This document shows, one piece after another, positions 18,245-64,000 of a stretch of 64,000 nt of DNA (positions are counted from its first letter, which is position 1; each line of letters begins with the position of its first letter). A model generated the notes under the pieces. The model was not told where the DNA came from. It did no database searches and saw only the letters and a program-made list of their open reading frames with translations. The stretch is from NCBI RefSeq assembly GCF_003575965.1, contig NZ_QWJJ01000008.1, positions 1-64,000 on the forward strand, written 5' to 3'. The DNA is from Pseudooceanicola sediminis (GTDB lineage: Bacteria; Pseudomonadota; Alphaproteobacteria; Rhodobacterales; Rhodobacteraceae). A program made the position numbers and the translations under genes.

Positions 18245-18246
18245 GC

Positions 18247-18418: not shown

Positions 18419-18427
18419 TGCATCGCC

Positions 18428-21883: not shown

Positions 21884-22334
21884 AGTGTTTTCTCCCTAGG
21901 GCGTCGGACCCTGCGCGACGAAATATCCCCTTGCTTCTGTCAAAATTAACGACCCGCGTCCAGTGCGCCGGATGCACCCGCGCGCCACGGCGGCACCGTT
22001 CCGCGCGCCGCTAACCCCGCAGAATCCCTGACAGGTTCGCCCGCCCTGCGCACGCCGCGCCCGACCCGCCGCGCGGCTGGCCCGGGACCTGTATCGGGGC
22101 CTTTGGCGGGGCCTGTCGCAGGGCTTGGCACAATGGGGTCACAACCGGCGCACTCCGGCCCGGGAAATGCAGGCGCCTCGGTGCTGGTGGGGCCGCGCGG
22201 ATGGGGCGAACCGCGCGCCCACGCCCCCCCTTCGCACACGACCTGCACAAGACGACGCAGATGCGCCACCCCCCTGCCCGGGCGTCGGGCAGGCGCTGCC
22301 GCCGTCGGATGCCCGACAGGGGCGGCACCCCCTC
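21884..22334. other. Intergenic region upstream of ileS
   Basis: About 450 bases between the divergent glycosyltransferase and ileS units. It is GC-rich with several C-runs. I see no gene I can support. Short inverted GC-rich stretches occur near 22270-22330, just upstream of the ileS promoter; their role is unclear. Confidence 0.4.
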
Positions 22335-40844: not shown

Positions 40845-40885
40845 CTCTTAGCTCCCGTGCTGGTTTTTATAACTTGCTTATGTTT

Positions 40886-42642: not shown

Positions 42643-42753
42643 CGCCGCCACCCCGTCCATGTCACGCAACCCGTCACCCCGCCGGGTGCCCCCATGTTGC
42701 CCTTCGCAGGACCTGCGCGGACGGGCGCCTGGCAAGGCACGGCGCAGCTGGGA

Positions 42754-43536: not shown

Positions 43537-43546
43537 GCAGTTCCCC

Positions 43547-45007: not shown

Positions 45008-45040
45008 CTTACTCTCCCTGTCTGTTCCAACCCCGGCCCT

Positions 45041-45103
45041 GTTTCCCTGTTGGAAATATCCCGGGGGCGTCGCGCCTTTGGCGCGGCGGGGGCAGCGCCC
45101 CCT
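45041..45103. repeat. Dispersed hairpin repeat, copy 1
   Basis: An approximately 63-base element in the gap between the carbamoyl hydrolase and dihydropyrimidinase genes. It starts GTTTCCCTGTTGGAAATATC and continues as a GC-rich, self-complementary part (GGGGGCGTCGCGCC, then GGCGCGGCGGGGGC and AGCGCCCCC). A close relative lies at 47296-47355. It looks like a family of non-coding REP-like elements. Confidence 0.7.
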
Positions 45104-45142
45104 CTTCCCTCTGCCAACCCGCCCTCGGGGCAGGCGGCACGA

Positions 45143-46393: not shown

Positions 46394-46424
46394 GACAAGG
46401 CTCCTTGACTGACCTAAATTCCTT

Positions 46425-46440
46425 TTGACCTTTTGGTCAA
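46425..46440. promoter_or_regulatory. RutR-type operator
   Basis: TTGACC-TTTT-GGTCAA is a perfect 6+6 inverted repeat. It matches the Escherichia coli RutR consensus TTGACCA-NN-TGGTCAA at all but one fixed position. It lies between the carbamoyl hydrolase gene (minus) and the RutR-like regulator gene (plus) and could control both. Confidence 0.8.
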
Positions 46441-46641
46441 AGCCACGCTAGCAGAGCACATGGGGCAGTCAAGAAATTCGCCCGTCCAACACCGCTGCAA
46501 GACACCTGATGCCCGGATTGATCATATTTCAGTCACTCCGCACGCCCCGCCACGCCCACCCAAGCGACACAGCCGGCCATTTACGCAGAAAAGCTTTTAG
46601 AGACAGAAACTTCCCGTAGATTCGAAGGACCCTGCAACAGG

Positions 46642-47274
46642 ATGAACAAACCCTTGGCCCGCACCCGAATTCAACGCAAGAACATCGCCCTGATTTCCGA
46701 GGCAGCCCTGAACATCTTCTCCGCACAGGGCTTCCGCGGCGCCACGGTCGACCAGATCGCACGCGAAGCCAGCCTGTCGAAACCGAACCTGCTGTACTAT
46801 TTCCCCTCCAAGGAGGCGATCCACACGCACCTCCTCTCCACCTTGATGGACACCTGGCTCGACCCTTTGCGTGAACTCCAGGCCACCGGCGATCCGCTGG
46901 ACGAAATCCTCACCTACGTGCGCCGCAAACTGGAAATGAGCCGCGATCATCCACGCGAAAGCCGCCTCTTCGCCAATGAAATCGTCCAGGGCGCCCCCCA
47001 TATCCTCGGCCTGCTCGGCACCGACCTCAAGACTCTCGTCGATGAAAAGGCCGCGATCATCGCAGGCTGGATGGCCGAGGGGCGCCTCGCCCCCGCCGAC
47101 CCGCATCACCTGATCTTCTCGATCTGGTCGCTGACCCAGCACTACGCCGATTTCGATGTCCAGGTGCGTGCCGTTCTCGGCCCCGACCGCCCCGATCCCT
47201 TCCCCCAGGCCGAGGCCTACCTGACGACCCTGTTCACCCGAATGCTGTCCGTGGCCCCCCAGGGCCCCGCCTGA
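46642..47274 (+). CDS. rutR: RutR-like TetR family regulator
   Basis: A 210-residue TetR-type regulator. The N-terminal helix-turn-helix is ISEAALNIFSAQGFRGATVDQIAREASLSKPNLLYYFPSKEAIH. The C-terminal domain resembles YcdC/RutR, with SRLFANEIVQGAPHI and VDEKAAIIAGWMAEGRL. RutR of E. coli binds uracil and leaves TTGACCA-NN-TGGTCAA sites when pyrimidine is present. The gene is divergent from the pyrimidine operon, with such a site in the gap. No Rut (RutA) pathway genes are present, so here RutR serves the reductive route. Confidence 0.88.
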   Translation: MNKPLARTRIQRKNIALISEAALNIFSAQGFRGATVDQIAREASLSKPNLLYYFPSKEAIHTHLLSTLMDTWLDPLRELQATGDPLDEILTYVRRKLEMSRDHPRESRLFANEIVQGAPHILGLLGTDLKTLVDEKAAIIAGWMAEGRLAPADPHHLIFSIWSLTQHYADFDVQVRAVLGPDRPDPFPQAEAYLTTLFTRMLSVAPQGPA

Positions 47275-47295
47275 CGCGGGCGTGCCGGCCTGGAT

Positions 47296-47355
47296 GTTTC
47301 CCTGTTTGAAATATCCCCGGGGGACGCGCCGCCGGCGCGGGGGGCGGCGCCCCCT
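47296..47355. repeat. Dispersed hairpin repeat, copy 2
   Basis: The second copy of the element at 45041. It starts GTTTCCCTGTTTGAAATATC and continues with CCCGGGGGACGCGCCGCC, GGCGCGGGGGG and CGGCGCCCCC. It lies just after the rutR stop codon, in the same orientation as the first copy. The shared head is nearly identical, while the GC-rich hairpin part varies. Confidence 0.7.
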
Positions 47356-47380
47356 CCACCTCTACCGCCAGGGCCGTCGT

Positions 47381-47767
47381 TCACCCGGCACGACCTGCCC
47401 CGGGATCAATGCCGACCTGGTCGAAATAGGCGCGAACCGCGCTCTGGACATGGCGAAACCGGTCGCCGCCCAGATGCGTGCCCCCGAACCAGCGGGTCAC
47501 GATGACGACATGCCCCCGAAGGTCCGCGCGTTCCAGCATCCGCAAGATCACCAATCCAGCCCCTGCCTCGCCATCGTCGGACTTCACCGGTTCGCCCGGC
47601 AACAGCAGCGCCCAGGTGTTGTGGGTTGCCTTGGCGAATTTCTTGCGCCGCTTCAGTTCCTTGATCATCGCCTCGGCCTGCGCCCGGCTGTCCGCTGGCC
47701 CGCCCGACACCGCGTATCGCGATCCGCGGTCGCTCAGGACATTTTCCAGAATGGTCAGTTCCGTCAT
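47381..47767 (-). CDS. YigZ/IMPACT N-terminal (UPF0029) domain protein
   Basis: A 128-residue protein consisting only of the UPF0029/IMPACT N-terminal domain. It shows SRYAVSGGPADSRAQAEAMIKELKRRKKFAKATHNTWALLL, then SDDGEAGAG and VIVTRWFGGTHLGGDRFRHV. Typical YigZ proteins have an extra C-terminal domain and about 200 residues; this one lacks it. The molecular function is not established; the eukaryotic relative modulates translation control. The start at 47767 has GAGGTGA upstream. Confidence 0.8.
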   Translation of the reverse strand: MTELTILENVLSDRGSRYAVSGGPADSRAQAEAMIKELKRRKKFAKATHNTWALLLPGEPVKSDDGEAGAGLVILRMLERADLRGHVVIVTRWFGGTHLGGDRFRHVQSAVRAYFDQVGIDPGAGRAG

Positions 47768-47944
47768 GCTCACCTCGACGCCGCATTAGGGGCCCGCAAT
47801 CCCGGGGTCCGCAATATCGCACCCGCCCCGCCTTGGAAACACGCGCCCCACCACCTCCCCCCCTGAAAGCAGGTAGGGCCGCCCGATAAGGACGACCCTG
47901 AGACAGCCTGAAAACTGGTGGGGATCAGATTGCCTGTCTCAATC

Positions 47945-49249
47945 TCATTCAGCCGCCTTGATCGCGCCGGGGTTATTCGGATGGCTGGTCCAGTTGGCAT
48001 AAGGTTTGACGATTTCCCCGGTACGCTCGTCCAACGCGCCCATTTCCAGCTCGACCATCTCGATACAGCCCTCGACAGGGCAGACATTAACGCAAAGGTT
48101 GCACGCCACGCATTCGTCATCCTTTACCGTGAACACCCGATCAATGGACATGTCGATCGCCTGGTGGCTTGTATCCTCGCAGGCGGCATAGCAGCGGCCG
48201 CAGGAAATGCAGGCATCCTGGTCAATTCTGGCCTTGGTCACGTAATTCAGGTTCAGATATTGCCAATCCGTCACATTGGGCACCGCCATGCCGACAAAAT
48301 CCGACGTCTTCTCATATCCCTTTTCATCCATCCATTGGCTCAGACCCGAGATCATCTCCTGAACCACCTTGAAGCCATAGGTCATTGCAGCGGTGCACAC
48401 CTGTACATTGCCCGCGCCAAGCGCCATGAATTCCGCCGCGTCCCGCCATGTCGTGATACCGCCGATGGCACTGATCGGCTTGCCATTGGTTTCGGGATCA
48501 CGGGCGATTTCCGCGCACATGTTCATCGCGATCGGCTTGACCGCCGGTCCGCAATACCCGCCATGCGTGCCCTTGCCGTCAATCATCGGCTCCGGGCTCA
48601 TCGCATCCAGATTGACGCTGGTGATTGAATTGATGGTGTTGATCAGGCTCACCGCATCGGCATTGCCCTTGAACGCAGCACGGGCAGGCTGGCGAATATC
48701 GGTGATATTCGGTGTCAGCTTCACGATGACCGGCTTGGAATAGTACATCTTGCACCATTCCGTCACCATGGTGATGTATTCCGGCACCTGCCCGACAGCC
48801 GACCCCATGCCACGTTCGGCCATCCCGTGCGGACATCCGAAGTTCAGCTCGATCCCGTCCGCCCCGGTCGCTTCGACCAGCGGCAGGATGGCTTTCCATG
48901 CCTCTTCCTCGCAGGGCACCATGATCGACACGATCAGCGCCCGATCGGGATAGTCCTTCTTGACGCGCGTGATCTCCTCTAGATTGCGATGCAGATCGCG
49001 GTCCGTGATCAGTTCGATGTTGTTCAACCCGAGCAGCCGGCGGTCGGCACCGAAAATCGCGCCGTAGCGTGGCCCGTTCACGTTCACGACCGGCTGACCT
49101 TCCATGCCGAGCGTCTTCCACACCACGCCACCCCACCCAGCCTCGAAGGCACGGCGCACGTTGTATTCCTTGTCGGTCGGCGGTGCAGAGGCCAGCCAAA
49201 AGGGGTTCGGGCTGGTAATGCCCAGAAAAGTTGTCGTCAGATCAGCCAT
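47945..49249 (-). CDS. preA: NAD-dependent dihydropyrimidine dehydrogenase subunit PreA
   Basis: A 434-residue FMN and Fe-S subunit. The N-terminal TIM barrel resembles dihydroorotate dehydrogenase, with NPFWLASAPPTDKEYNVRRAFEAGWGGVVWKTLG and ELNFGCPHGMAERGMGSAVGQ, which holds the catalytic region. The C-terminus carries two 4Fe-4S clusters, CISCGRCYAAC and CVACNLCVNVC. It reduces uracil and thymine to dihydropyrimidines with electrons from PreT. It follows preT after 66 bases on the same strand. Confidence 0.96.
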   Translation of the reverse strand: MADLTTTFLGITSPNPFWLASAPPTDKEYNVRRAFEAGWGGVVWKTLGMEGQPVVNVNGPRYGAIFGADRRLLGLNNIELITDRDLHRNLEEITRVKKDYPDRALIVSIMVPCEEEAWKAILPLVEATGADGIELNFGCPHGMAERGMGSAVGQVPEYITMVTEWCKMYYSKPVIVKLTPNITDIRQPARAAFKGNADAVSLINTINSITSVNLDAMSPEPMIDGKGTHGGYCGPAVKPIAMNMCAEIARDPETNGKPISAIGGITTWRDAAEFMALGAGNVQVCTAAMTYGFKVVQEMISGLSQWMDEKGYEKTSDFVGMAVPNVTDWQYLNLNYVTKARIDQDACISCGRCYAACEDTSHQAIDMSIDRVFTVKDDECVACNLCVNVCPVEGCIEMVELEMGALDERTGEIVKPYANWTSHPNNPGAIKAAE

Positions 49250-49315
49250 ATCACGTCTCCCTGCGTAGGGCGGCCGGGCATGCCCGAAACCACCTTTGCG
49301 TGGGGGGCTCGCGCC

Positions 49316-50650
49316 CTACCCCATCAATGCCTTGTGAATATCCTCGGCCGCATCGCGCCCTTCGGCCACGGCGGTCACCGTCAGGTCCTCGCCACCCAGG
49401 GCACAGTCCCCCCCGGCCCAGACGCCCTTAACCGAGGTACGCCCGCCCCCCGTCACCACGATCTTGCCCCGGGTGATTTCCAGCCCCTCGGGCGCGCCCT
49501 GCAACGTCTGGCCAATGGCCTTGAACACCTGGTCCGCCACCAGCCGCACCGTCTCGCCGGTGCCGGTCAGACGGCCATCCACGTCCTGCGTATACTCCAG
49601 CTCGACCTCGCTGGCCGCGCCGTTGCCGTGCACGGCAACCGGCATCACGTTGGTCATGATCCGCACGCCCTTGGACGCCGCAAGATCCTGTTCAAACTGC
49701 GATGCCCCCATGCGGTCGGCTCCGCGCCGATAGGCCACGGTAACGCTCTCCGCGCCCAGCAGCCGCGACTGGACGGCGGCGTCGATCGCCGTCATCCCGC
49801 CACCGATCACCACGACGCGACGCCCCACCGGCAGCGTCGCCAGATCCTCCGCCTGCCGCAACTCGGCAATGAAGGAAACAGCGTCGACAACCCCGTCCTT
49901 CTCCGCACCCGCGACCGACAAGGCATTGACCCCCGCCAGGCCAATCCCGAGGAAAACGGCATCATGGTCCTGTTTCAGCTGCTCCAGGCTCAGTCCGGCG
50001 CCCAGCGATCTGCCGGTTTCCACGGTGATCCCGCCGATCCCCAGCAGCCAGGCGACCTCGCGCGCGGCGAAATCCTCGGTCGATTTGTAGGCGGCGATAC
50101 CGAATTCGTTCAGGCCGCCCGCCTTGGCGCGGGCGTCATACATGACCACGTCATGCCCCTTCATCGCCAGGCGGTGCGCGCAGGCCAGGCCCGCAGGACC
50201 AGCCCCCACAACCGCCACGCGCTTGCCGGTTTCGGCGGCGCGGGCAAAGGGGTGCGAATTGCGCGCCATCAGCGTGTCCGTCGCGTACCTTTGCAGACGA
50301 CCGATCTCGACCGGCTGACCCTCTGCCGTTTCGCGCACGCAGACCTCCTCGCACAGCGTCTCGGTCGGGCAGACCCGCGCGCACATCCCGCCAAGGATGT
50401 TCTGTTCCAGGATCGTCCTTGCCGCCGCTTCGGGCGTACCGGTCATGATCTGGCGGATGAACAACGGAATGTCGATCGAGGTCGGACAGGCCGTCATGCA
50501 CGGGGCGTCGTGGCAGAAATAGCAGCGGTCCGCTGCAACATGCGCCTCATGCGGCGTCAGCGGCGGATGCAGGTCCTGAAAATTCACGTCCAGATTTTCG
50601 CCCGGCAGGCGCCCCGGCTGGATACCCGGTGTCATTGTCGTGTTGCTCAT
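49316..50650 (-). CDS. preT: NAD-dependent dihydropyrimidine dehydrogenase subunit PreT
   Basis: A 444-residue FAD and Fe-S oxidoreductase. The N-terminal cysteine clusters are CYFCHDAPCMTACPTSIDI and GGMCARVCPTETLCEEVC. They are followed by the FAD-binding VAVVGAGPAGLACAHRLAMKGHDV and the NAD(P)-binding VVVIGGGMTAIDAAVQSRLLG, as in the glutamate synthase small subunit. It supplies electrons to PreA. The start at 50650 has GGGAGG seven bases upstream; longer frames run through the promoter region. A RutR-like site lies 55 bases upstream. Confidence 0.95.
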   Translation of the reverse strand: MSNTTMTPGIQPGRLPGENLDVNFQDLHPPLTPHEAHVAADRCYFCHDAPCMTACPTSIDIPLFIRQIMTGTPEAAARTILEQNILGGMCARVCPTETLCEEVCVRETAEGQPVEIGRLQRYATDTLMARNSHPFARAAETGKRVAVVGAGPAGLACAHRLAMKGHDVVMYDARAKAGGLNEFGIAAYKSTEDFAAREVAWLLGIGGITVETGRSLGAGLSLEQLKQDHDAVFLGIGLAGVNALSVAGAEKDGVVDAVSFIAELRQAEDLATLPVGRRVVVIGGGMTAIDAAVQSRLLGAESVTVAYRRGADRMGASQFEQDLAASKGVRIMTNVMPVAVHGNGAASEVELEYTQDVDGRLTGTGETVRLVADQVFKAIGQTLQGAPEGLEITRGKIVVTGGGRTSVKGVWAGGDCALGGEDLTVTAVAEGRDAAEDIHKALMG

Positions 50651-50704
50651 CCTGGGGCCTCCCGTTGAGATCCTTGGTAGAGCCAGCGTGGCATGTTTCA
50701 ATTT

Positions 50705-50720
50705 TTTATCAAATGGTAAA
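50705..50720. promoter_or_regulatory. RutR-like operator before preT-preA
   Basis: TTTATCA-AA-TGGTAAA is an imperfect palindrome that matches TTGACCA-NN-TGGTCAA in 11 of 14 fixed positions. It is weaker than the site at 46425 but placed correctly, 55 bases before the preT start. Confidence 0.45.
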
Positions 50721-50869
50721 TTTTCTACGCGGACATTATTTTTCAAATGGCCCCGCATCTGCGCAAAATTCAATCGCCCCGCCGTACGACCGGATGCACC
50801 GCACGTGCAAACCGACCGTCCGAACCAACAGCCCCCCTGACAGACCTGCAAACAGCAGGCCCCTGCGCA

Positions 50870-53855: not shown

Positions 53856-54041
53856 TCCGTGCCCTTCTTTCGTCCTGCCTGCCCGATCGTGCCGGGCAAC
53901 ATGACTTAGCAATGAAAATCGACCCTGTAAATCCGTCCTTGGGCGCCGCCTGTCAAGCACTCTTGCAACACCGCCTCGCCTTGCGCCCGGCCCGATCCCG
54001 GGCCTAGTTTGCCCGGAACGCAAGACAACAGGAAATGCCCG

Positions 54042-55106
54042 ATGACCGAAGTGACCCAGACCCCGCCCGCCGACCTGCCCGACCTGCCCGACCTGCCCGA
54101 CCGCCCCCTGTCGATCTGCGTCGTCGGGGCCGGGGCGATCGGCGGCGCCATCGCCGCCCAGCTTGCCGCGGCCCCGCCCGAAGCCGGGATCGGCGCGGTC
54201 TCCGTCGTCGCGCGCGGTGCGCATCTTGCGGCCATCCAGGCGCAGGGCCTGCGCCTCAGAACCACCTCTGCCCCCGACATTCGCACCTTTCAGGTGACCG
54301 CCACAGACGACCCCGACAGCCTGCCCGCGCAGGACGTGATCATCACCGCACTGAAGGGGCACCAGATACCGCCCATGGCAGATCAGCTCGCTCGGCTGCT
54401 CGCGCCCCATGGCCGCATCCTCAGCGTCGTCAATGGCCTGCCCTGGTGGTACCCGATCAGCGATGGCAACGGCGGCACCCGCGGCGCGGACGAGGTCGAC
54501 CCGGGCGGGGCCTTGTGGTCTGCCATCGGGCCGGCGCGGGCCATCGGCGCCATCGCCTTTTTCAGCGCCTTTGTCGAGGAACCAGGTCTTATCAACGTCA
54601 ACAACGAAGGCTACATCGACCTTGGCCGCCTGCCCGGCCAGGACACGCGCGACGTGCTGCGGATGGCCGAGGTGATGCAAGCCGCCGGTCTGTCGATCCG
54701 CCGCACCCAGCCATTCCAGAATGCACTGTGGAACAAGATCATGGGCAACGCGGCGCTGAATTCGGTCTGCGCCGTTTCGCAGACGCCGGTGCACAAGGCG
54801 CTGGCCGATCCGGTGCTGATGCAGTTCGTCGTCGCGATCATGCACGAGGTACAGGCCGTCGGGCTGGCCGAACAGGTCGTATTCCCGACCTCACCCGAAC
54901 AGCGCGCACAGGCGGCGCGGGAAAAGCTGCGGATCAAGCCGTCGACCCTGCAAGACCTCGAAGCCGGCCGCCCGATGGAGATCGAGCCTATCTTCGGCGC
55001 CGCCCTTGCGGTGGCGCGTTCGCATGGGCTGGGATGCCCCAACCTCGCGCTGGTCACCGCCATGCTGCGCGCCATTGACCGCACCCGTTTCGGCGATCCC
55101 GCCTGA
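54042..55106 (+). CDS. Ketopantoate reductase family (ApbA/PanE-like) protein
   Basis: A 354-residue NAD(P)-dependent oxidoreductase. It has the Rossmann motif ICVVGAGAIGGAIAAQLAA near residue 26, FQNALWNKIMGNAALNSVCAVSQTP for the substrate Lys and Asn region, and a C-terminal helical domain. Residues about 10-20 encode LPDLPDLPDRP from a 9-base tandem repeat in the DNA (three units), an odd addition before the fold. The role may be pantothenate synthesis or reduction of another 2-keto acid. It stands alone, divergent from trpE(G). The start has AGGAA upstream. Confidence 0.87.
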   Translation: MTEVTQTPPADLPDLPDLPDRPLSICVVGAGAIGGAIAAQLAAAPPEAGIGAVSVVARGAHLAAIQAQGLRLRTTSAPDIRTFQVTATDDPDSLPAQDVIITALKGHQIPPMADQLARLLAPHGRILSVVNGLPWWYPISDGNGGTRGADEVDPGGALWSAIGPARAIGAIAFFSAFVEEPGLINVNNEGYIDLGRLPGQDTRDVLRMAEVMQAAGLSIRRTQPFQNALWNKIMGNAALNSVCAVSQTPVHKALADPVLMQFVVAIMHEVQAVGLAEQVVFPTSPEQRAQAAREKLRIKPSTLQDLEAGRPMEIEPIFGAALAVARSHGLGCPNLALVTAMLRAIDRTRFGDPA

Positions 55107-55201: not shown

Positions 55202-55780
55202 TCAGCGCAGACCATCGCCCTTGGAAATCTGATCGACCGTCAGCCCGCCGACACGCGCGTGGATGCGCCCGCCGCGCGACATCGCCAGCGCGAACAACAG
55301 CTCGTCGGCTTTCGGGCCGTCAGGCAGCCCCACCTCCATCGCGTCGAAGTGGCTGCGCACATAGGCCGCGTTGATATGGCCCAGCGGAATGTCGATCCGC
55401 GTGCCCGGCCCGCCCTGCTTCATCGACGACGGCACGATGGCCAGCGCCTCGCCCAGCCGTTCGCGCATCGAATACCCCCCCGGCACGTGCCACAGCGCGG
55501 TATGCTCCAGCTCTCCGGCCTCGCCGCACATGGCCGCCTTGCCGTAACCGTCGATCCCCTCGATCCCGCCCATGGCCGCAATCAGCTTGTCGGTCATCTC
55601 CAGGCCCAGCGGTTTCAGGTCGTCCATCGCGCTGGCAATATCCTCGACATAGCCGCCCGCAAAAGGGTTTTTGACCAGCGCCACGATGGCACCGCGCTGC
55701 CGCGCAGGCCCGCTCGGGCCACCGTCATGGGCAATCTCTTCCAGGAAAATCATCGTCTTGCGCAGGGTGAATTCAGCCAT
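55202..55780 (-). CDS. DUF1185 (amino acid synthesis family) protein
   Basis: A 192-residue protein of the DUF1185/AA_synth family. Features are LRKTMIFLEEIAHDGGPSGPARQRGAIVALVKNPFAGGYVEDIASAM, GIEGIDGYGKAAMCGEAGELEHTALWHVPGG and RIDIPLGHINAAYVRSHFDAMEV. No reaction has been assigned to this family to my knowledge. Its start overlaps the end of the UPF0280 gene by eight bases. It completes a three-gene operon with the 6-hydroxynicotinate-reductase-like protein. Confidence 0.88.
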   Translation of the reverse strand: MAEFTLRKTMIFLEEIAHDGGPSGPARQRGAIVALVKNPFAGGYVEDIASAMDDLKPLGLEMTDKLIAAMGGIEGIDGYGKAAMCGEAGELEHTALWHVPGGYSMRERLGEALAIVPSSMKQGGPGTRIDIPLGHINAAYVRSHFDAMEVGLPDGPKADELLFALAMSRGGRIHARVGGLTVDQISKGDGLR

Positions 55781-56642
55781 GCCGCTCCTCCAGTTTCATT
55801 TTTTCATCCGTTATCAGATCGCGCGCGCCAACCTGCCGCGATTGCCCCTGCAACGCCAGGTGCACCGGCCCGATCACCCCGCGCGCCTGCAACTCCGCCG
55901 CATGAGAGGCACCGCGCGCCAGCGCCAGCGCCACCTCGGCCTCGCTCAGGGGATCCAGGCCCACCGTCACCAGACGCGCGCCCAGGTCACTGTCGGGCGA
56001 CAGCGCGTCGGCGGGGCGGCGATGCACTGCGGGATGGCCCGGCAGATCGACGCGATTGGCGATCATCGTCGCCGCCGCGTCGGCCACCGCGGCGCCGCGC
56101 GCCAGCACCGTCACCGCATCCGCGATGCCCAGCGAATGACTGCGCCCCCCCCGACCGGATGTCGCGCAGCCCCGCCACGGGGCAGAGGCCGGCACCGCGA
56201 TCACGCCGCCCGCCATCGCCAGCCGCATCTCTTCGTCTCCGCCGACCTGCCAGGCAATATCCCCGCCGTTGTTCACCCACAGCTTGGCGCCCGGCGCGAC
56301 AGCGGCCATGGCCCCCAGAACCTCCTCGGCCACGGCGCCGGCCACCGCCGCCATCGGCGTGATGAAATCGGGCGCATGGGGGGCAACCGCACGCGCCATG
56401 CGCTGCGCCACCACGCCCTGCGGCTGGCCACCCTGGCGGCGCAGCTCGGCCAGTTCCGCCACCAGATCTTCCAGTAGGCCGTCGAAACGCCGGACCGCCG
56501 CCGCATGGGCCACAGGTCGCACATCCACCTCCGCCCAGAGGATCAGGTCGATCGGCCCCGCCTGCAAATGCAGCCGCGCGCCATCGGGCAGCATCGCCGC
56601 CCGCGCCACGCCCGAGCGCATCTGCGGCAGCGCCTCGATCAC
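55773..56642 (-). CDS. UPF0280 family (ApbE-superfamily) protein
   Basis: A 289-residue protein of the UPF0280 family, which belongs to the ApbE-like superfamily. It shows PDFITPMAAVAGAVAEEVLGAM and LWVNNGGDIAWQVGG, equivalent to the GGD region of ApbE flavin transferases, and SLGIADAVTVLARGAAVADAAATMIANRV. The start is a GTG at 56642 inside a GTGA overlap with the upstream gene, so the two are translationally coupled. ApbE proteins attach FMN to target proteins; a similar role on the adjacent reductase is an inference. Confidence 0.88.
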   Translation of the reverse strand: MIEALPQMRSGVARAAMLPDGARLHLQAGPIDLILWAEVDVRPVAHAAAVRRFDGLLEDLVAELAELRRQGGQPQGVVAQRMARAVAPHAPDFITPMAAVAGAVAEEVLGAMAAVAPGAKLWVNNGGDIAWQVGGDEEMRLAMAGGVIAVPASAPWRGCATSGRGGRSHSLGIADAVTVLARGAAVADAAATMIANRVDLPGHPAVHRRPADALSPDSDLGARLVTVGLDPLSEAEVALALARGASHAAELQARGVIGPVHLALQGQSRQVGARDLITDEKMKLEERHG

Positions 56643-58084
56643 CGCACGACCGGGGCAACCGGGGCGACCGCGCGAAAGCTGTCGCCGTATTCGCCGCCCT
56701 CTTCCAGCACCTGCGCCAGCGGCCGGATCGCGGCCCCATAGCCGCCGAGGGCGACGTACAGATCGCGCGGCATGGTGAATTCCAGCGGCGCGACCAGCGC
56801 CGGCGTCGGCACATAGCCAAAGCTGCCCGCCGGCATGTCCAGCACATCGACCATCAGGGTAATTCCGCCGCCGGGCCACAAAAACGCCTGCGCCCCGCCC
56901 AATGTCACCTTGGCCGCGCCCGATTGCACCGCGCGGGTCAGCCGCACCGGGTTCTGCGTGACCCCGGATCGCAACGACCCACCGGCCCCGGCGCAGAACA
57001 TCACCGTGCACAGCGCCGGTTCGCAGTTTTCCTCGATCAGCGCGACCGAGGGGCGCAAGCTCTCGGGCAGCGGTTGCTGCACCGGGCGCAGGTCCGCATC
57101 CAGCACGTAATAGGCTGCATGTTCGCCCGTGGTCGACACCATCAGCAGCGTCAGTCCGGGCCGCGCGCCCTTCTTGGGCTGCCAGTCGCCAAGGATGGTC
57201 AGCGGATCGCTGATATCTGTGCCACCCCAGCCCAGCCCCGGCTCGGCCACCTGAAAGTACCGGCCCGGCGTCGACCGCCGCCCCTTGATCTTGATCCCGG
57301 TGTCCTGCCAGCCGATCACCTTGCCCGCCTGATGTTCGCTGACCACGCCGGTGATATGGTCGTCTACCACGACAACCTCGTCGACCAGGCCCTGCCACTG
57401 GCTCGCGAACATGCCGATTGTCGCGCTGCCGCAACCAACGCGCATCCGTTCCTCGCGCGCACCGTCCACGACGGGGGCCTGCCCCGCCTGCACCAGCACG
57501 GTTGACCCGCCCTCGATCTCCAGCTCCACCGCCGCGCCGTTGCACAGCGCCATCAGCGTGTCGCAGGTGGCACGCCCCTCGGCCTTGGACCCGCCCGTCA
57601 GGTGATCCACACCGCCCAGCGACAGCATCTGCGACCCATACTCGGCCGTCATCACCATGCCGATCGGCTCGCCCCTGGCGCGCACCACCGCGCGCTCGTC
57701 CCCGATGTGGCGGTCGGTGTCGATCTTTACCTTGACGCCACAGTAGGAATAGATCGCCTCGGTCACGACCGTCACCGTATCGACGCCCTCGATCTCGCGG
57801 CTGACGATGAACGGCGCCGGTTTGAAATCGGGATAGGTCGTGCCCGCGCCGATGCCCGACACGAACAGATCGCCCCCCGCCACCGCGTCACCGTCCCAAT
57901 CACGCTGCGCAAAGGGGCGGATCTCTCCGCCCGCCGCGATACGCCGATCCAGCACCGTCACCGGATCACAGCGCACAATCCGTCCGCCTTCGTTTGCATA
58001 TCGGTCACAGGCGCCTGTGCGCCCTTCGGCCACATAGCACATCACCGGGCAGGCATCGCATCGGATCTTGTCAACTGGCGCCAT
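56639..58084 (-). CDS. 6-hydroxynicotinate reductase-like Fe-S protein
   Basis: A 481-residue protein similar to 6-hydroxynicotinate reductase (Hnr) of anaerobic nicotinate degraders. Cys9, Cys12, Cys16 and Cys26 (CDACPVMCYVAEGRTGACDRY) can bind an Fe-S cluster. Further blocks are YSYCGVKVKIDTDRHIGDERAVVRARG, MVMTAEYGSQMLSLGGVDHLTGGS and QPKKGARPGLTLLMVSTTGEHAAYYVLD. Residues 160-166, DHLTGGS, resemble the D-x-x-(S/T)-G-A-(S/T) flavinylation motif. It should reduce an N-heterocycle or related substrate. It is first in an operon that is divergent from a MarR-type regulator. Confidence 0.8.
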   Translation of the reverse strand: MAPVDKIRCDACPVMCYVAEGRTGACDRYANEGGRIVRCDPVTVLDRRIAAGGEIRPFAQRDWDGDAVAGGDLFVSGIGAGTTYPDFKPAPFIVSREIEGVDTVTVVTEAIYSYCGVKVKIDTDRHIGDERAVVRARGEPIGMVMTAEYGSQMLSLGGVDHLTGGSKAEGRATCDTLMALCNGAAVELEIEGGSTVLVQAGQAPVVDGAREERMRVGCGSATIGMFASQWQGLVDEVVVVDDHITGVVSEHQAGKVIGWQDTGIKIKGRRSTPGRYFQVAEPGLGWGGTDISDPLTILGDWQPKKGARPGLTLLMVSTTGEHAAYYVLDADLRPVQQPLPESLRPSVALIEENCEPALCTVMFCAGAGGSLRSGVTQNPVRLTRAVQSGAAKVTLGGAQAFLWPGGGITLMVDVLDMPAGSFGYVPTPALVAPLEFTMPRDLYVALGGYGAAIRPLAQVLEEGGEYGDSFRAVAPVAPVVR

Positions 58085-58158
58085 ACCGCGTCACTCCTGT
58101 AAACAAGGGGTCCGGCGCCGCACCGGCCAGCAGAGCCGCCGCGCGATACGCCCGACAT

Positions 58159-58174
58159 TTTGTTCGTATACAAA
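58159..58174. promoter_or_regulatory. Candidate MarR-type operator
   Basis: TTTGT-TCGTAT-ACAAA is an inverted repeat, with GTATAC inside, in the 170-base gap between the reductase-like gene and the MarR-type gene. This is the usual place and form for an operator of a divergent MarR regulator. Confidence 0.5.
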
Positions 58175-58254
58175 TGGAATTTGCCTGTTCGCCGACCTCG
58201 GTGTCAATCTCTTTCCACCTTGCCAATCGCAACCGGGCCAGAGATACCTTTTTC

Positions 58255-58692
58255 ATGCAATATGAGTTCAAGGATAAGGCAGCAAATGCCTACAGGCTGG
58301 AGGAGCAGGTTGGCTTCCTTCTGCGCCGTGCGTCGCAACGCCATCTCTCTATCTTCACCCAGATGCTGCCCGATCTCACCTCGACACAGTTCGCCACGCT
58401 GGCCAAGCTGTGCGAAATGGGGCCGACCTCGCAGAACGCGCTTGGCCGCGCCGTGGCGATGGACGCCGCCACGATCAAGGGTGTCGCGGACCGCCTGCGC
58501 GCCCGGGGCCTCGTCATGGCAACCCCCGACGAAGAGGACCGCCGCCGCCACTACCTCTCGGCCACCGAAGAGGGCCGCGCGCTCTATGAACGCACCGCCC
58601 ATGCCGCCCTTGCCATCACCGGCGAAACCCTCGCCCCGCTTGATGCCGATGAAATCGAGACATTCCTGACCCTGCTGCGCAAGCTCTGCTGA
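58255..58692 (+). CDS. MarR family transcriptional regulator
   Basis: A 145-residue winged-helix regulator. It shows YRLEEQVGFLLRRASQRHLSIFTQMLP, the recognition region TSQNALGRAVAMDAATIKGVADRLRARGLV and the wing DEEDRRRHYLSATEEGRALY, all typical of MarR proteins that respond to aromatic acids. The start at 58255 gives a protein of normal length, but its ribosome binding site is weak. It faces the reductase-like operon and ends ten bases from the convergent ABC transporter operon, so it likely controls one or both. NicR of Pseudomonas nicotinate degradation is of the same family. Confidence 0.88.
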   Translation: MQYEFKDKAANAYRLEEQVGFLLRRASQRHLSIFTQMLPDLTSTQFATLAKLCEMGPTSQNALGRAVAMDAATIKGVADRLRARGLVMATPDEEDRRRHYLSATEEGRALYERTAHAALAITGETLAPLDADEIETFLTLLRKLC

Positions 58693-58701
58693 CCCTCCGC
58701 C

Positions 58702-59415
58702 TCAGACCCCCAGATGCCCCCGCAGGCGCCTGGCATGTTCCGGCACCGCCAGATCGGCGCGGCTGAAATCTTCGGCATTGCGGCCCATCTCGATCACGCT
58801 GACCCGGTCGGCAAGCCCCAGCACGGCATCGATGCGCTGTTCCACCAGCAGCACCGCCAGCCCCTTGTCGCGCATCGCCACCATGACCTGCCGGATCGCC
58901 TCGATCATCGACGGCTGAAGCCCCTCTGTCGGCTCGTCCAGCAGCAACAGCCTTGGCCGCACGCACAGCGCCCGCGCCGTCGCCAGCATCTGCTGTTCGC
59001 CGCCCGACAGGGTGCCCGCGCGCTGGCTCATGCGTTCCTGCAGGCGCGGAAACAGCTCCAGCACCTCGGCGCGCAGGGCGCGGCGGCTGGCGGTGTCCTT
59101 TGGCCCGGCCCCAACACCGACCTCGATATTCTGCGCCACGCTCAGATCCGCAAACAGCCGCCTGCCCTGCGGCACGTACCCGACCCCCTGTCGCGGCACC
59201 TGGTGCGCAGGCATCTGCGCCAGGTCGGCGCCCCCCAGACCGATCCGCCCCGCCTCGGCGCGCACCAGCCCCATGATCGCCTTCATCAGCGTCGTCTTGC
59301 CCGCGCCGTTGCGCCCCATCAGCACGGTGATTTCCCCGGCCTCGGCACGCAGGTTCACGCCCCGCAACACCGGCGCGGCGCCATACCCGGCACTCAGCCC
59401 CTCAATGTTCAGCAT
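58702..59415 (-). CDS. Branched-chain-type ABC transporter ATP-binding protein (LivF-like)
   Basis: A 237-residue ATPase. Walker A is GRNGAGKTTLMKA, the signature LSGGEQQMLATA and Walker B LLLLDEPTEGLQ. The start at 59415 lies inside the end of the LivG-like gene (14-base overlap). It works with the LivG-like ATPase, two permeases and a binding protein encoded upstream. Confidence 0.93.
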   Translation of the reverse strand: MLNIEGLSAGYGAAPVLRGVNLRAEAGEITVLMGRNGAGKTTLMKAIMGLVRAEAGRIGLGGADLAQMPAHQVPRQGVGYVPQGRRLFADLSVAQNIEVGVGAGPKDTASRRALRAEVLELFPRLQERMSQRAGTLSGGEQQMLATARALCVRPRLLLLDEPTEGLQPSMIEAIRQVMVAMRDKGLAVLLVEQRIDAVLGLADRVSVIEMGRNAEDFSRADLAVPEHARRLRGHLGV

Positions 59416-60127
59416 CGTCGCCTCCGGTGCCCAGATAGGCCGATTGCACCTCGGCACTTTGGTGGATCTCCTGCGGCGTCCCCTGCGCCAGCACCTCGCC
59501 GAAATTCAGCACGGTGATGCGGTCGGCCAGCTCCATCACGACGGACATGTTATGCTCGATCAGCAGGATCGTCGTCTCGGTCGCCAAGCCGCGGATCAGC
59601 GCCTTGAAGCCAGCGATCTCGCTCTCGGCCAGGCCCTGCGTCGGCTCATCCAGGATCAGCAAGGCCGGGCGCTGCGCCAACCCCATCGCAATCTCCAGCA
59701 ACCGCTGGTGCCCATAGGACAGATCGCCCGCGATTTCCCCGGCACGCGCCCCCAGTCCGACCCGTGACAGGGCCGAGGCAACCTCGGCCTCGACATCCCC
59801 GCCCAGACGCCGGGCGGCAAGGGCGACATTTTCATGGCAGCTCAGCTTGGCAAACACGCTGGTGATCTGAAAGGTATAGGCCATGCCCGCCTGCACCCGC
59901 GCCTGCGCCCCCAGCCGCGTCACGTCCCGCCCCTCAAAGGTGATCACCCCGGAGGTGGGCCGCAGCCGCCCGATCAACATCGACACAAAGGTCGTCTTGC
60001 CCGCGCCGTTCGGCCCGATCAGCGCATGAACCTCGTGGCGGTGCAGCGCGAAATTGATGTCGTGGTTGGCGCGCAGCCCGTCAAAGCTCTTGCTCAACCC
60101 CTTGGTCGACAGGATCACATCGCTCAT
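59402..60127 (-). CDS. Branched-chain-type ABC transporter ATP-binding protein (LivG-like)
   Basis: A 241-residue ATPase. Walker A is GPNGAGKTTFVSM and Walker B LLILDEPTQGLA. The signature region reads LSYGHQRLLEIA, the usual LivG form. The start at 60127 overlaps the stop of the LivM-like gene by four bases. Confidence 0.93.
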   Translation of the reverse strand: MSDVILSTKGLSKSFDGLRANHDINFALHRHEVHALIGPNGAGKTTFVSMLIGRLRPTSGVITFEGRDVTRLGAQARVQAGMAYTFQITSVFAKLSCHENVALAARRLGGDVEAEVASALSRVGLGARAGEIAGDLSYGHQRLLEIAMGLAQRPALLILDEPTQGLAESEIAGFKALIRGLATETTILLIEHNMSVVMELADRITVLNFGEVLAQGTPQEIHQSAEVQSAYLGTGGDDAEH

Positions 60128-61074
60128 GGCAGATCCCTCCACAGGCGTCGGCGCACCTCGCCCACGATACCCTGCGGCGCGAACAGCGTCAGGCCCACCA
60201 GCACCACGCCCGCAATCAGCATGTAGGCGTCGGTCACCCCGGTCGCGAGGTCGATCAGATAGAACATGAACAGCGTCCCCACGAACGGCCCCAACACGGT
60301 GCCCGCGCCGCCCAGCAACACCCAGAGCAGCGCAAAGATCGAATATTGCACCCCTGCAAAGCTGGCCCCGACATAGCCGAACAGCAGCCCGTAGGCGGCC
60401 CCCGACGCGGCCGAGATCGCGCCGGAAATCACCAGCGCCCCCAGCTTGCGGCGTCCCGTGTCATAGCCCAGCAGGCGCGCGCGTTCCTCGTTTTCACGGA
60501 TCGCCACCAGAACCCGGCCAAAGGGTGCCCTGACCAGCCACAGGCTGAACAGCAGCGCGGCGGAAAACAGAACCCATCCGACCAGATATCGCGGGTGCTG
60601 CTGGCTCAGGTCGATGCCTGCCAGCGTCCGGCTGACGCCCGGCACGACAAACCCGTCGTCGCCATGGGTGATATCCCCGAAATACAGGATCGTCAGGTAG
60701 ACCGCCTGCGCGAACATCAGCGTCACGATCATGAACGACACGCCCGCCGTGCGCAGCGCCAGCGCGCCGACCACCAGCGCCAGCAACGCGCCGGCCCCCG
60801 TACCGACCAGCCACGCGGGCAGCGCCGACATGCCGAAATGCAGCCCCATCAGACCCGCGCCATACAGGCCCGCGCCAAAGAACATCGCATGGCCAAGGCT
60901 CAGCAGCCCGGTATAGCCAAAGGCGATATTGTACCCGATCGCATAGACCGCCAGCACCATGACCCGCGCCAGCACGCCCTGATGATAGACCGGCAGGACA
61001 AAGTTCAGCGCAAACAGCACCGCCACCAGCCCCAGATGCAGCGCGACGACCGCGCCCCAGGTCTTGCCCCTCAT
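60124..61074 (-). CDS. Branched-chain-type ABC transporter permease (LivM-like)
   Basis: A 316-residue permease with about eight to ten membrane segments. The family motif AIGYNIAFGYTGLLSLGHAMFFGAGLY and the late GAGTVLGPFVGTLFMFYL are both present. The start overlaps the stop of the LivH-like gene by four bases. Confidence 0.93.
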   Translation of the reverse strand: MRGKTWGAVVALHLGLVAVLFALNFVLPVYHQGVLARVMVLAVYAIGYNIAFGYTGLLSLGHAMFFGAGLYGAGLMGLHFGMSALPAWLVGTGAGALLALVVGALALRTAGVSFMIVTLMFAQAVYLTILYFGDITHGDDGFVVPGVSRTLAGIDLSQQHPRYLVGWVLFSAALLFSLWLVRAPFGRVLVAIRENEERARLLGYDTGRRKLGALVISGAISAASGAAYGLLFGYVGASFAGVQYSIFALLWVLLGGAGTVLGPFVGTLFMFYLIDLATGVTDAYMLIAGVVLVGLTLFAPQGIVGEVRRRLWRDLP

Positions 61075-61997
61075 CGCTCACGCACCCCGAACAGGCCCTG
61101 CGGGCGGAACACCAGCACCAGCGCCACCAGCAGCGTCGCGATGATCTTGGCCAGCGTCGGCGTGAAAAAGACCGAGATGATGCCATCGCTCATCCCGATC
61201 AGCACCGCCGCAACGACCGTGCCCGCAAGCGAGCCGAGCCCGCCGATGATCACCACGATAAAGCTCAGCAACAGGGCGTCGCCCCCCATCAGGTAATGCG
61301 CCTGCTGGATCGGCACGATCAGCACCCCGGCCAGCGCCGCCAGCGCGGCCCCCGCGCCAAAGACCAGCGCATAGACCCGCTCGACCGGGATGCCGAAGGC
61401 CGTCGCCATCTCGCCGTCGGCCTGCGTCGCGCGCATGATCAGCCCGGCGCGGCTGCGCGTCATGAACAGGCGCAGCGCCGCCAGCAGCACCACGGCCGCC
61501 ACGATCACGAACAGCTTGTAACTCGTCGTCGACAGACCCCAGGGGAAATACAGGCCAATCCCGCCCTCGCCCCACTCGACCCACGGCAGGGCAATGCGGC
61601 TGTTGAACGGCGGCGCCACGGGCCGCGCCTCGGGGCCATACCCCATCAGCGCCAACTGCTGGATGATGTACAGCAACCCGATGGTCGCCACGATCGTGCG
61701 CTCGGGGTCATAGCTTAGCCGCTTCAGGATCGTCACATCCGCCAGCACCGCCAGCGCGCCGACGATCAGCGGCGCCAGGATCAGGGCCGCGACGAAATTG
61801 ATCACCGCTCCGCCGCCCAGCACGCTGGTCACCACCCAGGCCATCACCGCGCCCAGCATGTAGAACTCGCCGTGCGCCACGTTGACAACGCGCATGACAC
61901 CGAAGACGAGGCTCAGCCCCGAGGCCATCAGCGCCAGCACAGCCGCCAGCACCGCGCCCTCCAGGCAGGCGAGCAATAAGTAAGGTCCGAATTCCAT
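61071..61997 (-). CDS. Branched-chain-type ABC transporter permease (LivH-like)
   Basis: A 308-residue permease. Signatures are ALMASGLSLVFGVMRVVNVAHGEFYMLGA near the N-terminus and IVVIIGGLGSLAGTVVAAVLIGMSDGI near the end. It is separated from the binding-protein gene by 146 bases without a clear hairpin and is otherwise co-oriented with it. Confidence 0.93.
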   Translation of the reverse strand: MEFGPYLLLACLEGAVLAAVLALMASGLSLVFGVMRVVNVAHGEFYMLGAVMAWVVTSVLGGGAVINFVAALILAPLIVGALAVLADVTILKRLSYDPERTIVATIGLLYIIQQLALMGYGPEARPVAPPFNSRIALPWVEWGEGGIGLYFPWGLSTTSYKLFVIVAAVVLLAALRLFMTRSRAGLIMRATQADGEMATAFGIPVERVYALVFGAGAALAALAGVLIVPIQQAHYLMGGDALLLSFIVVIIGGLGSLAGTVVAAVLIGMSDGIISVFFTPTLAKIIATLLVALVLVFRPQGLFGVRER

Positions 61998-62143
61998 TGA
62001 TCATTCTCCGAGGGCGCTGCCGATCCGTGCCGGGCAGGTGGCGGGTCCCTCAACCGGGCGCGACTGGCCCGCTGGTCTGGACATGTCCTCCCCCTGCCCG
62101 GCACGCGGCGTCGGACAGGGGGATCGTTTCAGGCGCGATGGCG

Positions 62144-63457
62144 TCAGAAACTCATCGTGGTGTAGTCCACTTCGTCCGGGTACAGCGTATCTTCGTAGTC
62201 GACCGTTTCGGCCACCACCAGCTTGCCGTCCGTCACCTTGGAAATGTACTGCGGCCCGAACACCTGGTGCGTCTTGCCGTTGAACCGTTTCGCGCCCTGC
62301 GGGTGGTCCGGCCCGGCGGGCATGTCGGTCATCGCCTCGACCGCCTCGATCAGCGCCTGGCGGTCATCGGTGGATTTGTAATCCGCCGCTTCCATGCCCG
62401 CCTTGATGATGTGCAGCGTTTCCCAGCAGCCGAACATGTGCGCCGCGGTCGACACATCCGCCCCGTCGCTGGTGCTGGCGCCATTCGCGTCGATCCCCAC
62501 CGCATCGCGGTAGGCTTTGACATAGTCGGGCGCATCGTCCTGCAGGTACCGCGGCATCCCTTCCCAGAAATACGTGCCCTCCAGGAACTCCAACCCGGGC
62601 GAGGACAGATCGACCGCCTCCAGCGAATCGATGAAGCCGAAGATCTCGGGGCGCGAGGGTCCGAAGAACTCGCCCATCTCCTTGACAAAGGTCAGCACGG
62701 CCGGCCCGACCATGACGTGATAGATCACTTCGGTGTCGCGCGGGATCTTGGGGAAATACTTGGTAAAGCTGGTCTCGGTCGGCGGAATGGCGATCTGCGC
62801 CACCACTTCGCCACCCGCTGCCGTGATCGCCGGGGTCAGGTTGTCGCGGTGATCATAGCCGAAACCGTAATCGGGGTAGATCATCGTCACCTTCTTGCCC
62901 AGCGTATTGGTCAGAAAGGGGGCCATCGCCGTCACCTGGCTTTTCACGTCCGTGATACCGGGTTGCAGCGTCCAGCGGTTCAGCATCCCCGACGCGACGT
63001 GATGCCCCTCGGACACCACGAAATACGGCAGCTTCAGTTCAGCCGCGCGCGGGGCGGCCCCGATCACGACATGGCTGAACAGCGTGCCGAAGGCGATGTC
63101 GCACTTGGACTGGCTGGCGAATTTCTCCAGCACCTCGGCGGCGCGTTTCGGGTCGGTGCCGTCATCCTCGGTCACCAGTTCCACCTGGCGGCCATTGATA
63201 CCGCCCTCTGCGTTGATCTTGGCCAGGGCCGCAACCGAGGTGCGCTCGTACCAGCGGCCATAGGCCGCGCCGATGCCGGTGGCGTGCTTGCCAAAGCCGA
63301 TGCGGATCGGCTCGGCGCTCTGCGCGCCGGCGTAACGCGACCACAGCGGCATGGTGGCCGCCGCACCTGCGCCCGCGGCCAGGGTCTTCAGCGCCTGGCG
63401 GCGCGTCGGCAGGGCTGAACTCGCCCCGGAAAGTCTCTTGCTGGGTGTATCGGTCAT
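62144..63457 (-). CDS. Branched-chain-type ABC transporter substrate-binding protein
   Basis: A 437-residue periplasmic binding protein of the Leu/Ile/Val (Peripla_BP_6) type. The N-terminus has a twin-arginine motif, TRRQALKTLAAGAGAAAT, so export by Tat is likely, with cleavage after the AGAQSA region. Family signatures are IRIGFGKHATGIGAAYGRWYERTSVAALAKINAEGGINGRQVELVTEDDGTDP and VTMIYPDYGFGYDHRDNL. The start at 63457 is preceded by AGGGA. The likely ligand, from the neighbouring Hnr-like genes and the MarR regulator, is an aromatic or N-heterocyclic acid rather than a branched-chain amino acid. Confidence 0.9.
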   Translation of the reverse strand: MTDTPSKRLSGASSALPTRRQALKTLAAGAGAAATMPLWSRYAGAQSAEPIRIGFGKHATGIGAAYGRWYERTSVAALAKINAEGGINGRQVELVTEDDGTDPKRAAEVLEKFASQSKCDIAFGTLFSHVVIGAAPRAAELKLPYFVVSEGHHVASGMLNRWTLQPGITDVKSQVTAMAPFLTNTLGKKVTMIYPDYGFGYDHRDNLTPAITAAGGEVVAQIAIPPTETSFTKYFPKIPRDTEVIYHVMVGPAVLTFVKEMGEFFGPSRPEIFGFIDSLEAVDLSSPGLEFLEGTYFWEGMPRYLQDDAPDYVKAYRDAVGIDANGASTSDGADVSTAAHMFGCWETLHIIKAGMEAADYKSTDDRQALIEAVEAMTDMPAGPDHPQGAKRFNGKTHQVFGPQYISKVTDGKLVVAETVDYEDTLYPDEVDYTTMSF

Positions 63458-63650
63458 GATCAGAACATCCCTGTTGGATATGATTGACGAGGTCTTATTA
63501 GGCTGACCCTGCGTCGCAGTCTGTAGGCGCGCAAATGAGCTGTCCAATAATTTATCTGCACCGAAACTCGTTTGTGTGCATTCTTTCTGGTCGCCGCTCA
63601 AAGATCGGGCGCCACTCCGCCCCGCATTGCCGCCCGCTGACATTCCGCCC

Positions 63651-63739: not shown

Positions 63740-64000
63740 TCATGCGCCGCGCGGTGATGCCAGCAGCCACAGCCCGAAAAGGGTATAGGCGATCATGAAC
63801 AGCGCCAGCGGCGCCTGGCTGATCGCCGCGCGCCGGTGGCTGCCGGTCAGCCGCAATGCGGCGGCATGGCTCATCAGGATGGCAATGACATGGCCCAGGA
63901 CAACGGCCCCCGCCTGCACCATGAACAGCACATGAACCGGGGCGCGCTGGTTCAGGAACCCCGTCGTCACCTCGATCTCCGGCCCGCCGATGTGATCGCT
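63740..64000 (-). CDS. Membrane protein, C-terminal part (runs off the window)
   Basis: The last 86 residues of a protein whose gene begins beyond the right edge. The visible part has two to three membrane segments (VLFMVQAGAVVLGHVIAILMSH and LALFMIAYTLFGLWLLAS) and a short loop with LTGSHRRAAISQAP. The conserved-looking GFLNQRAPVH before the first segment gives no firm family. I cannot name it. Confidence 0.65.
   Translation of the reverse strand, partial: SDHIGGPEIEVTTGFLNQRAPVHVLFMVQAGAVVLGHVIAILMSHAAALRLTGSHRRAAISQAPLALFMIAYTLFGLWLLASPRGA

Follow-up and report, generated by a model that had tools for sequence, protein, structure and literature searches.

The 64,000-nucleotide stretch of Pseudooceanicola sediminis DNA analyzed here (contig NZ_QWJJ01000008.1, positions 1 to 64,000; the window) in our judgment probably carries the central genes of a locus that breaks down nicotinate, or a compound very close to it, by a reductive and probably aerobic route; in this route, the putatively ATP-dependent enzyme HyuAB would replace enamidase and a UPF0280 protein would mature a 6-hydroxynicotinate reductase-like (Hnr-like) enzyme. 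There is good genomic support for the HyuAB exchange, for the bond between Hnr and UPF0280, and for a shared sequence motif. An earlier reading of the DNA letters alone (the sequence-only reading) had proposed an undescribed system for the import and reductive breakdown of an N-heterocyclic or similar acid. Such a breakdown is supported by sister clusters, in which Hnr is joined to a molybdenum hydroxylase, often to a ferredoxin reductase and in some cases to an enamidase, and by a MarR regulator resembling BpsR; the system can no longer be called undescribed, since a conserved Hnr nicotinate cluster had already been reported (PMC3511419). Reductive nicotinate catabolism with a conserved Hnr cluster is known, and the variant proposed here is the HyuAB form.

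Eubacterium barkeri ferments nicotinate through Ndh, Hnr, and enamidase. Its Hnr, which carries a covalent flavin and Fe-S clusters, yields 1,4,5,6-tetrahydro-6-oxonicotinate (THON), a six-membered lactam. The P. sediminis locus resembles this system in the predicted Hnr reaction to THON, and some sister clusters contain an enamidase close to 2vun; it differs in that the P. sediminis genome gave no enamidase match at an E value of 1e-6 and in that its pathway is probably aerobic. According to the available text of PMC3511419, the conserved Hnr clusters of Azorhizobium caulinodans ORS571 and Bradyrhizobiaceae SG-6C encode the enzymes of the first three steps (a hydroxylase, Hnr, and, by inference, an enamidase), an ATP-binding cassette (ABC) transporter, and two proteins of unknown function, not named there, which would correspond to UPF0280 and DUF1185. 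In contrast to those clusters, the P. sediminis locus has neither an adjacent hydroxylase nor an enamidase, and HyuAB appears to stand in.

The Hnr-UPF0280 pair and DUF1185

As the sequence-only reading had it, the Hnr-like, UPF0280, and DUF1185 genes form one operon: the GTG start of UPF0280 at position 56642 shares bases with the Hnr stop codon in a GTGA overlap, and an 8-base overlap joins the end of UPF0280 to DUF1185. The Hnr-like protein is 59 to 75% identical to proteins encoded on 26 plasmids, 17 of which are annotated as 6-hydroxynicotinate reductase, and among the matches listed its closest named relative comes from Pseudooceanicola spongiae (93%); no Pfam match up to an E value of 10 and no NCBIfam match were obtained. 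The Fe-S cysteines pointed out earlier are indeed conserved, with C16, C26, C115, C218, and C354 kept in all 60 aligned relatives, C174 in 59, C181 and C359 in 57, C9 and C12 in 56, and C39 in 41. Broken-looking Hnr copies were seen at G374:C28:4403-5656, which has five in-frame stops, and at G028:C1:2969823-2971222, which is split into two overlapping pieces.

We compared the surroundings of Hnr in annotated plasmid loci (8 of the 26 Hnr records) and in the best 80 of 591 confirmed genomic relatives. The common layout is a membrane protein, a Liv transporter, MarR, a flavin adenine dinucleotide (FAD) subunit, a molybdenum subunit, Hnr, UPF0280, and DUF1185, and part of the loci add HyuAB or an amidohydrolase, plus a ferredoxin-NADP reductase (Fpr) nearby. 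Counts were made on 105 distinct loci that include at least 7 kb to either side of Hnr, after two partial Hnr genes (L194, L195) and six duplicates had been dropped. Near Hnr, UPF0280 occurred in all 105, DUF1185 in 90, MarR in 79, and an ABC permease in 70; the gene arrangement is thus not due to chance. Because the best 80 of 591 loci lean to near kin, a survey of 289 genomes of the class provides the less biased set; there, UPF0280 and Hnr occupied the same 44 genomes, 39 of which also had DUF1185. On plasmids, 26 of 27 UPF0280 records were the 26 Hnr records. The co-occurrence of all three genes anticipated by the sequence-only reading therefore holds for Hnr and UPF0280 and is looser for DUF1185: the trio is a tight Hnr-UPF0280 pair with an optional DUF1185.

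UPF0280 matches NCBIfam model NF003322 at 302.7 bits (cut-off, 290), and DUF1185 corresponds to PF06684 at 212 bits (cut-off, 27), a family with a solved fold. The UPF0280 family, COG2122, is described as distantly related to ApbE, with a homology that seems not to extend to the flavin-binding region, and as needed by Desulfovibrio, alongside DUF39 and a NIL/ferredoxin protein, to make homocysteine; a persulfide role has also been suggested (available text of PMC5764234). That system, from Desulfovibrio and methanogens, resembles ours in that a UPF0280-family protein is genetically tied to a set including a ferredoxin (PMC5764234); the partner there is different, and PF01837 (DUF39) was found in none of 349 genomes of the phylum. 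We propose that UPF0280 is a maturation factor of Hnr, with flavin attachment or sulfur/Fe-S insertion as the alternatives. Two results count against the proposal: a profile search of the PDB with UPF0280 returned no ApbE, with 2o34 the sole hit above noise (E = 1.2e-11), and the ApbE target motif D-x-x-[ST]-G-A-[ST] (PMC12052999) was present in 0 of 60 Hnr sequences. On these grounds we rejected UPF0280 as a plain ApbE flavin transferase and kept the broader term maturation factor.

Separately, UPF0280 was seen without an accompanying Hnr on a Hydrogenophaga sp. BPS33 plasmid (L204); it lies in repeats that also contain genes for Rieske oxygenase, PDR reductase, and MarR and that adjoin IS1071 copies. 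No operator-like site of the kind described below was found there.

Proposed ring opening by enamidase or HyuAB

By sequence, the amidohydrolase in one relative's cluster, L037, is an enamidase: a phmmer search of the PDB placed 2vun, titled ENAMIDASE, first (E = 1e-106). The same query found 22 of the 289 class genomes at an E value of 1e-30. Among the 105 loci, 13 carried enamidase, 41 carried HyuA, none carried both, and 51 carried neither (Fisher P = 0.0014). The exclusion was also seen genome-wide: of the 44 Hnr genomes, 17 had an enamidase orthologue (64 to 75% identity), 16 had HyuA in the Hnr locus, with three loci that were not fetched (G028, G064, and G231) scored as lacking it, and none had both (P = 5e-5). 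Enamidase-like matches of 35 to 44% identity were not counted as orthologues, and one HyuA genome, G104, has such a match (41%). Eighteen class genomes had an enamidase orthologue, and one of them, G082, lacks Hnr. All 13 of the 13 enamidase loci also contain DUF1185, which we therefore rejected as a stand-in for enamidase.

Enamidase opens THON, the product of Hnr (PMC9304392). The candidate replacement, HyuAB, is encoded just past the window end. The best NCBIfam models for HyuA and HyuB are the caprolactamase alpha and beta subunits, at 492 and 303 bits, respectively. HyuA contains the ATP motifs DVGGTFTD, DMGGT, and GATPGP and HyuB the metal signature HxxD...H, the latter found by pattern and not by alignment; both kinds of motif are known from the CapAB family, and the pair thereby resembles the Pseudomonas jessenii caprolactamase CapAB (available text of PMC8453981). 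It differs from CapAB in scoring far below the equivalog cut-off of 1,000, which neither subunit reaches, and in lacking a vicinal Cys pair in HyuB. Since THON is a six-membered lactam, it would be chemically sensible, though still a proposal, that HyuAB replaces enamidase as the THON opener. HyuA proteins at least 60% identical were found in 16 plasmid records, 10 of them Hnr records and 6 from Sinorhizobium medicae.

On a quick tree of 84 Hnr sequences, which included 30 of the 51 loci with neither opener, the opener labels required 6 changes, at least 3 of them forced by starred branches, compared with a shuffled mean of 11.9. For example, L035 (HyuA) stands beside L037 and L038 (enamidase) with a support of 85, within a starred group of five. 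The partial clustering of the labels favors an alternative that we consider unlikely, namely, that the same logic is applied to a different ring (picolinate, isonicotinate, or a substituted nicotinate) and that HyuAB replaces enamidase because the reduced lactam differs; the interleaving of labels inside small Hnr clades argues for a common substrate instead.

The MarR regulator and an operator-like motif

The nearest PDB sequences to the window MarR are 2nnn, an unnamed regulator (3.3e-30), and BpsR, 6pcp (2.9e-24); it reached no NCBIfam MarR cut-off. BpsR, a Bordetella MarR protein that regulates a nic cluster, binds 6-hydroxynicotinate via Tyr15, His23, Arg26, and His32 (available text of PMC6837509). 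In the window MarR, these positions are occupied by Tyr, Phe, Arg, and His, so that three of the four contacts are kept. In the 83 of 139 loci whose MarR residues could be read (alignment score of at least 150), Tyr and Arg were invariant and the last His was present in 72; it was kept in 7 of 11 enamidase loci and 27 of 31 HyuA loci. Judged by these residues, MarR is likely a sensor of 6-hydroxynicotinate or a close analogue. The Phe in place of His23 would suit a different ring, whereas a pocket much alike in enamidase and HyuA loci speaks for one ligand in both.

The gap between Hnr and MarR contains a near-palindrome that is common to eight congeneric loci and reads TTTGTATACGAA in the window. 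We trained a matrix on these eight Hnr promoters, the window site included, and excluded the 13 locus identifiers of the training set from the count of operon heads. Sites scoring at least 14 preceded 79 of 123 nontraining Hnr operon heads, compared with 7 of 483 control open reading frames. Such sites were also located upstream of Fpr genes (11/14), HyuA genes (21/44, or 14/32 once twelve upstream regions shared with other cluster genes were excluded), genes for the membrane protein (13/27), and NicA (1/3), and upstream of none of 72 binding-protein genes. In 130 kb of P. sediminis DNA, made up of stretches chosen for pathway genes, three sites scored at least 16: the training site itself, one between the membrane protein gene and HyuA, and one on contig C3 where an unlinked Fpr gene begins, overlapping candidate start codons. 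No site of at least 16 appeared in five base shuffles of this DNA.

The motif also occurs outside Hnr loci. On a Sinorhizobium medicae plasmid (L203, CP140910.1), two strong operator-like sites precede a hydantoinase A gene and a BMP-type transporter. The region (9694-22116) comprises hydantoinase A, DUF1185, MarR, an isochorismatase-family protein, two nucleoside hydrolases, and the BMP-type transporter, with no Hnr on that plasmid, and the MarR pocket reads Tyr, His, Arg, and Ala. This gene set is suggestive of pyridine-nucleoside catabolism, which it would fit.

Hydroxylase, proposed pathway, and locus layout

The sequence-only reading had found no nicotinate hydroxylase in the window, and none is linked to Hnr in the genome as a whole; a NicAB-like pair does exist at C48:164551-168503, about 107 kb away. 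Its role in the pathway is uncertain because the two genes lie apart from the Hnr locus and have a weak site upstream. The FAD/Mo pair usually found beside Hnr is absent from P. sediminis and nine congeners. Within the genus, NicB was present in 10 of 10 genomes (P. sediminis included) whose Hnr locus lacks the adjacent pair and in 0 of 7 that have it. A search for NicB that covered 50 of the 80 genomes, with up to 15 candidates scored in each, gave matches at an E value of 1e-100 in the four that have no FAD/Mo pair and no such match in the remaining 46; these four belong to the genus ten, all of one clade, and the pattern may therefore represent a single event. The flanking DNA fetched around Hnr in L033, L035, L039, and L193 likewise contains NicAB-like genes, and the NicAB-like cluster of a relative bears the same operator-like motif. 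The Mo subunit of the enamidase cluster L037 is itself nearer to aldehyde oxidoreductase (7e-109) than to nicotinate dehydrogenase 3hrd (7e-72).

Apart from these loci, plasmid p4 of Pseudosulfitobacter pseudonitzschiae (L206) carries MarR, a NicAB-like pair (66% identity to the P. sediminis NicB), and an FAD monooxygenase gene whose upstream gap contains operator-like sites. This might be a nonreductive 6-hydroxynicotinate branch. The monooxygenase fell below all NCBIfam cut-offs, its best model being 3-hydroxybenzoate 6-monooxygenase (241 of 459).

The missing Hnr-linked hydroxylase would be expected with a different ring, and the motif at a relative's NicAB-like cluster would not. The missing hydroxylase also bears on another explanation, to which we give still less credence: the organism would start at imported 6-hydroxynicotinate, having lost the hydroxylase, and the NicAB-like pair would serve another oxidation. 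The absence of the adjacent Mo hydroxylase here and in nine congeners fits this, as do the distance of the pair, its weak site, and its nearer PDB relationship to aldehyde dehydrogenase; the complementary distribution of NicB within the genus and the NicAB-like genes flanking Hnr in four loci point the other way. Finally, we rejected amino acid metabolism as the function of the locus, which is hinted at by the Pfam name of PF06684, the Liv-type transporter, and the proposal made from fold and neighbors in the PF06684 structure paper (available text of PMC2954203); given the recurrent company of Mo hydroxylase, Hnr, enamidase, or HyuAB and a binding protein matched just distantly by urea- and LivK-type models, it is highly improbable.

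Several further observations weigh against nicotinate as the substrate or against parts of the scheme. Neither opener was present in those 51 of 105 loci, and labels that are clustered as well as interleaved leave room for different substrates. The Hnr model has no PDB relative, and its identity derives from annotated plasmid relatives and not from the E. barkeri Hnr itself. One BpsR contact, His23, is Phe in the window MarR. Sites of at least 14 precede just 2 of 13 enamidase genes, and the operator counts are not independent, because 9 of the 11 Fpr sites fall in gaps that also border a HyuA, enamidase, or FAD-subunit gene, and the genus of the window itself supplies 9 of the 14 HyuA sites; in the chosen stretches of P. 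sediminis DNA, the fourth site scores 14.1. As to the hydroxylase, the name NicAB derives from the annotation of a relative, the pair reaches no NCBIfam cut-off, the best PDB matches of NicB are cytochrome subunits of aldehyde and sugar dehydrogenases with nicotinate dehydrogenase 3hrd following later (4.8e-25), the site before NicA scores 10.9, and one congener, G349, has NicAB without Hnr.

With nicotinate or a close analogue as the probable substrate, we infer the following route. The ABC transporter would import the acid, and a molybdenum hydroxylase would make 6-hydroxynicotinate, using the adjacent FAD- and Mo-subunit pair in most relatives and perhaps the unlinked NicAB-like enzyme in this genus. 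Hnr, judged by its family, would reduce the ring to THON with electrons from the Fpr of the same regulon, as the family and the operator-like site suggest. HyuAB, as a putative ATP-dependent lactamase, would open the lactam, and DUF1185 may take part in ring opening or in the step right after it, with an enamine or imine as a possible substrate. UPF0280 would serve as the dedicated maturation or cofactor-insertion partner of Hnr. MarR would bind the motif and repress the Hnr and HyuAB promoters, and probably that of the reductase gene, until released by 6-hydroxynicotinate or an analogue. A bolder combination of these ideas is tentative and, taken whole, rather doubtful: a second widespread form of reductive nicotinate pathway that opens THON with an ATP-dependent CapAB-type lactamase, UPF0280/COG2122 as an obligate maturase of both Hnr-type reductases and the DUF39 homocysteine system, DUF1185 as a Rid-like enzyme hydrolyzing the enamine that ring opening sets free, and one MarR acting on TTTGTATACGAA-type palindromes to run the whole regulon, including the unlinked ferredoxin reductase.

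The gene arrangement is given in Table 1. The operon faces the divergent MarR gene, beyond which lies a complete branched-chain-type transporter, as previously described; the cluster is larger than had been thought, running past the window end into HyuAB. On the same contig, the membrane protein gene is followed by divergent hyuA and hyuB and by a nitronate monooxygenase-like gene. The membrane protein (L120:740-2143) is multispanning, has no Pfam or NCBIfam match, and recurs as an Hnr-cluster neighbor in 51 of 147 loci, duplicates included. NCBIfam matches of the binding protein, to urea- and LivK-type models, are distant. Searches were run with 55773-56651 (three extra codons) for UPF0280, with a translation starting at 58177 for MarR, and with 62144-63643 for the binding protein.

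Table 1. Genes and sites of the Hnr locus in the window and just past its end (L120 coordinates)
Feature	Position	Strand	Basis
Hnr-like Fe-S reductase (6-hydroxynicotinate reductase family), 481 aa	56639-58084	-	Plasmid and genome relatives, conserved cysteines
UPF0280/COG2122 protein, 289 aa, GTG start	55773-56642	-	NCBIfam NF003322
DUF1185/PF06684 (AA_synth) protein, 192 aa	55202-55780	-	Pfam
Near-palindromic operator-like site, Hnr/MarR intergenic	58162-58175	.	Aligned in eight congeneric loci, own included
MarR-family regulator, 145 aa	58255-58692	+	BpsR 6pcp match
LivF-type ABC ATPase	58702-59457	-	Pfam/NCBIfam family searches
LivG-type ABC ATPase	59402-60142	-	Pfam/NCBIfam family searches
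LivM-type ABC permease	60124-61074	-	Pfam/NCBIfam family searches
LivH-type ABC permease	61071-61997	-	Pfam/NCBIfam family searches
Peripla_BP_6 substrate-binding protein, twin-arginine-like signal	62144-63457	-	Pfam/NCBIfam family searches
Conserved membrane protein, 467 aa, 3' end	63740-64000	-	Continues past window to L120:2143
HyuA	L120:2302-4368	+	Past window end, divergent from membrane protein gene
HyuB	L120:4682-6424	+	Past window end, after HyuA

A ketopantoate reductase-like gene (54009-55106) adjoins the DUF1185 gene, a position it retains in 13 of the 16 loci of the genus that extend to that side (L178-L192, L194); as speculation, its product might act on a formylglutarate-type intermediate. 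Also near Hnr, positions 39840-50851 hold what we take, from the sequences, to be a reductive pyrimidine-type set (SsuA/Thi5-like transporter, dihydropyrimidinase-like, amidase-like, TetR-like, PreA-like, and PreT-like genes). Several congeners likewise have relatives of the PreT, PreA, amidase, or dihydropyrimidinase gene downstream of their Hnr locus.

The cluster makes the roles of two poorly understood protein families, UPF0280 and DUF1185, testable. The function of UPF0280/COG2122 has been an open question from homocysteine biosynthesis, and its distribution in the class survey, identical to that of one nameable enzyme, offers a simple partner with which to test it. From the exchange of enamidase for HyuAB, one would expect a lactam to be the substrate of members of a family commonly labeled just hydantoinase or oxoprolinase, and the shared motif allows unlinked genes of the pathway to be predicted in marine bacteria.

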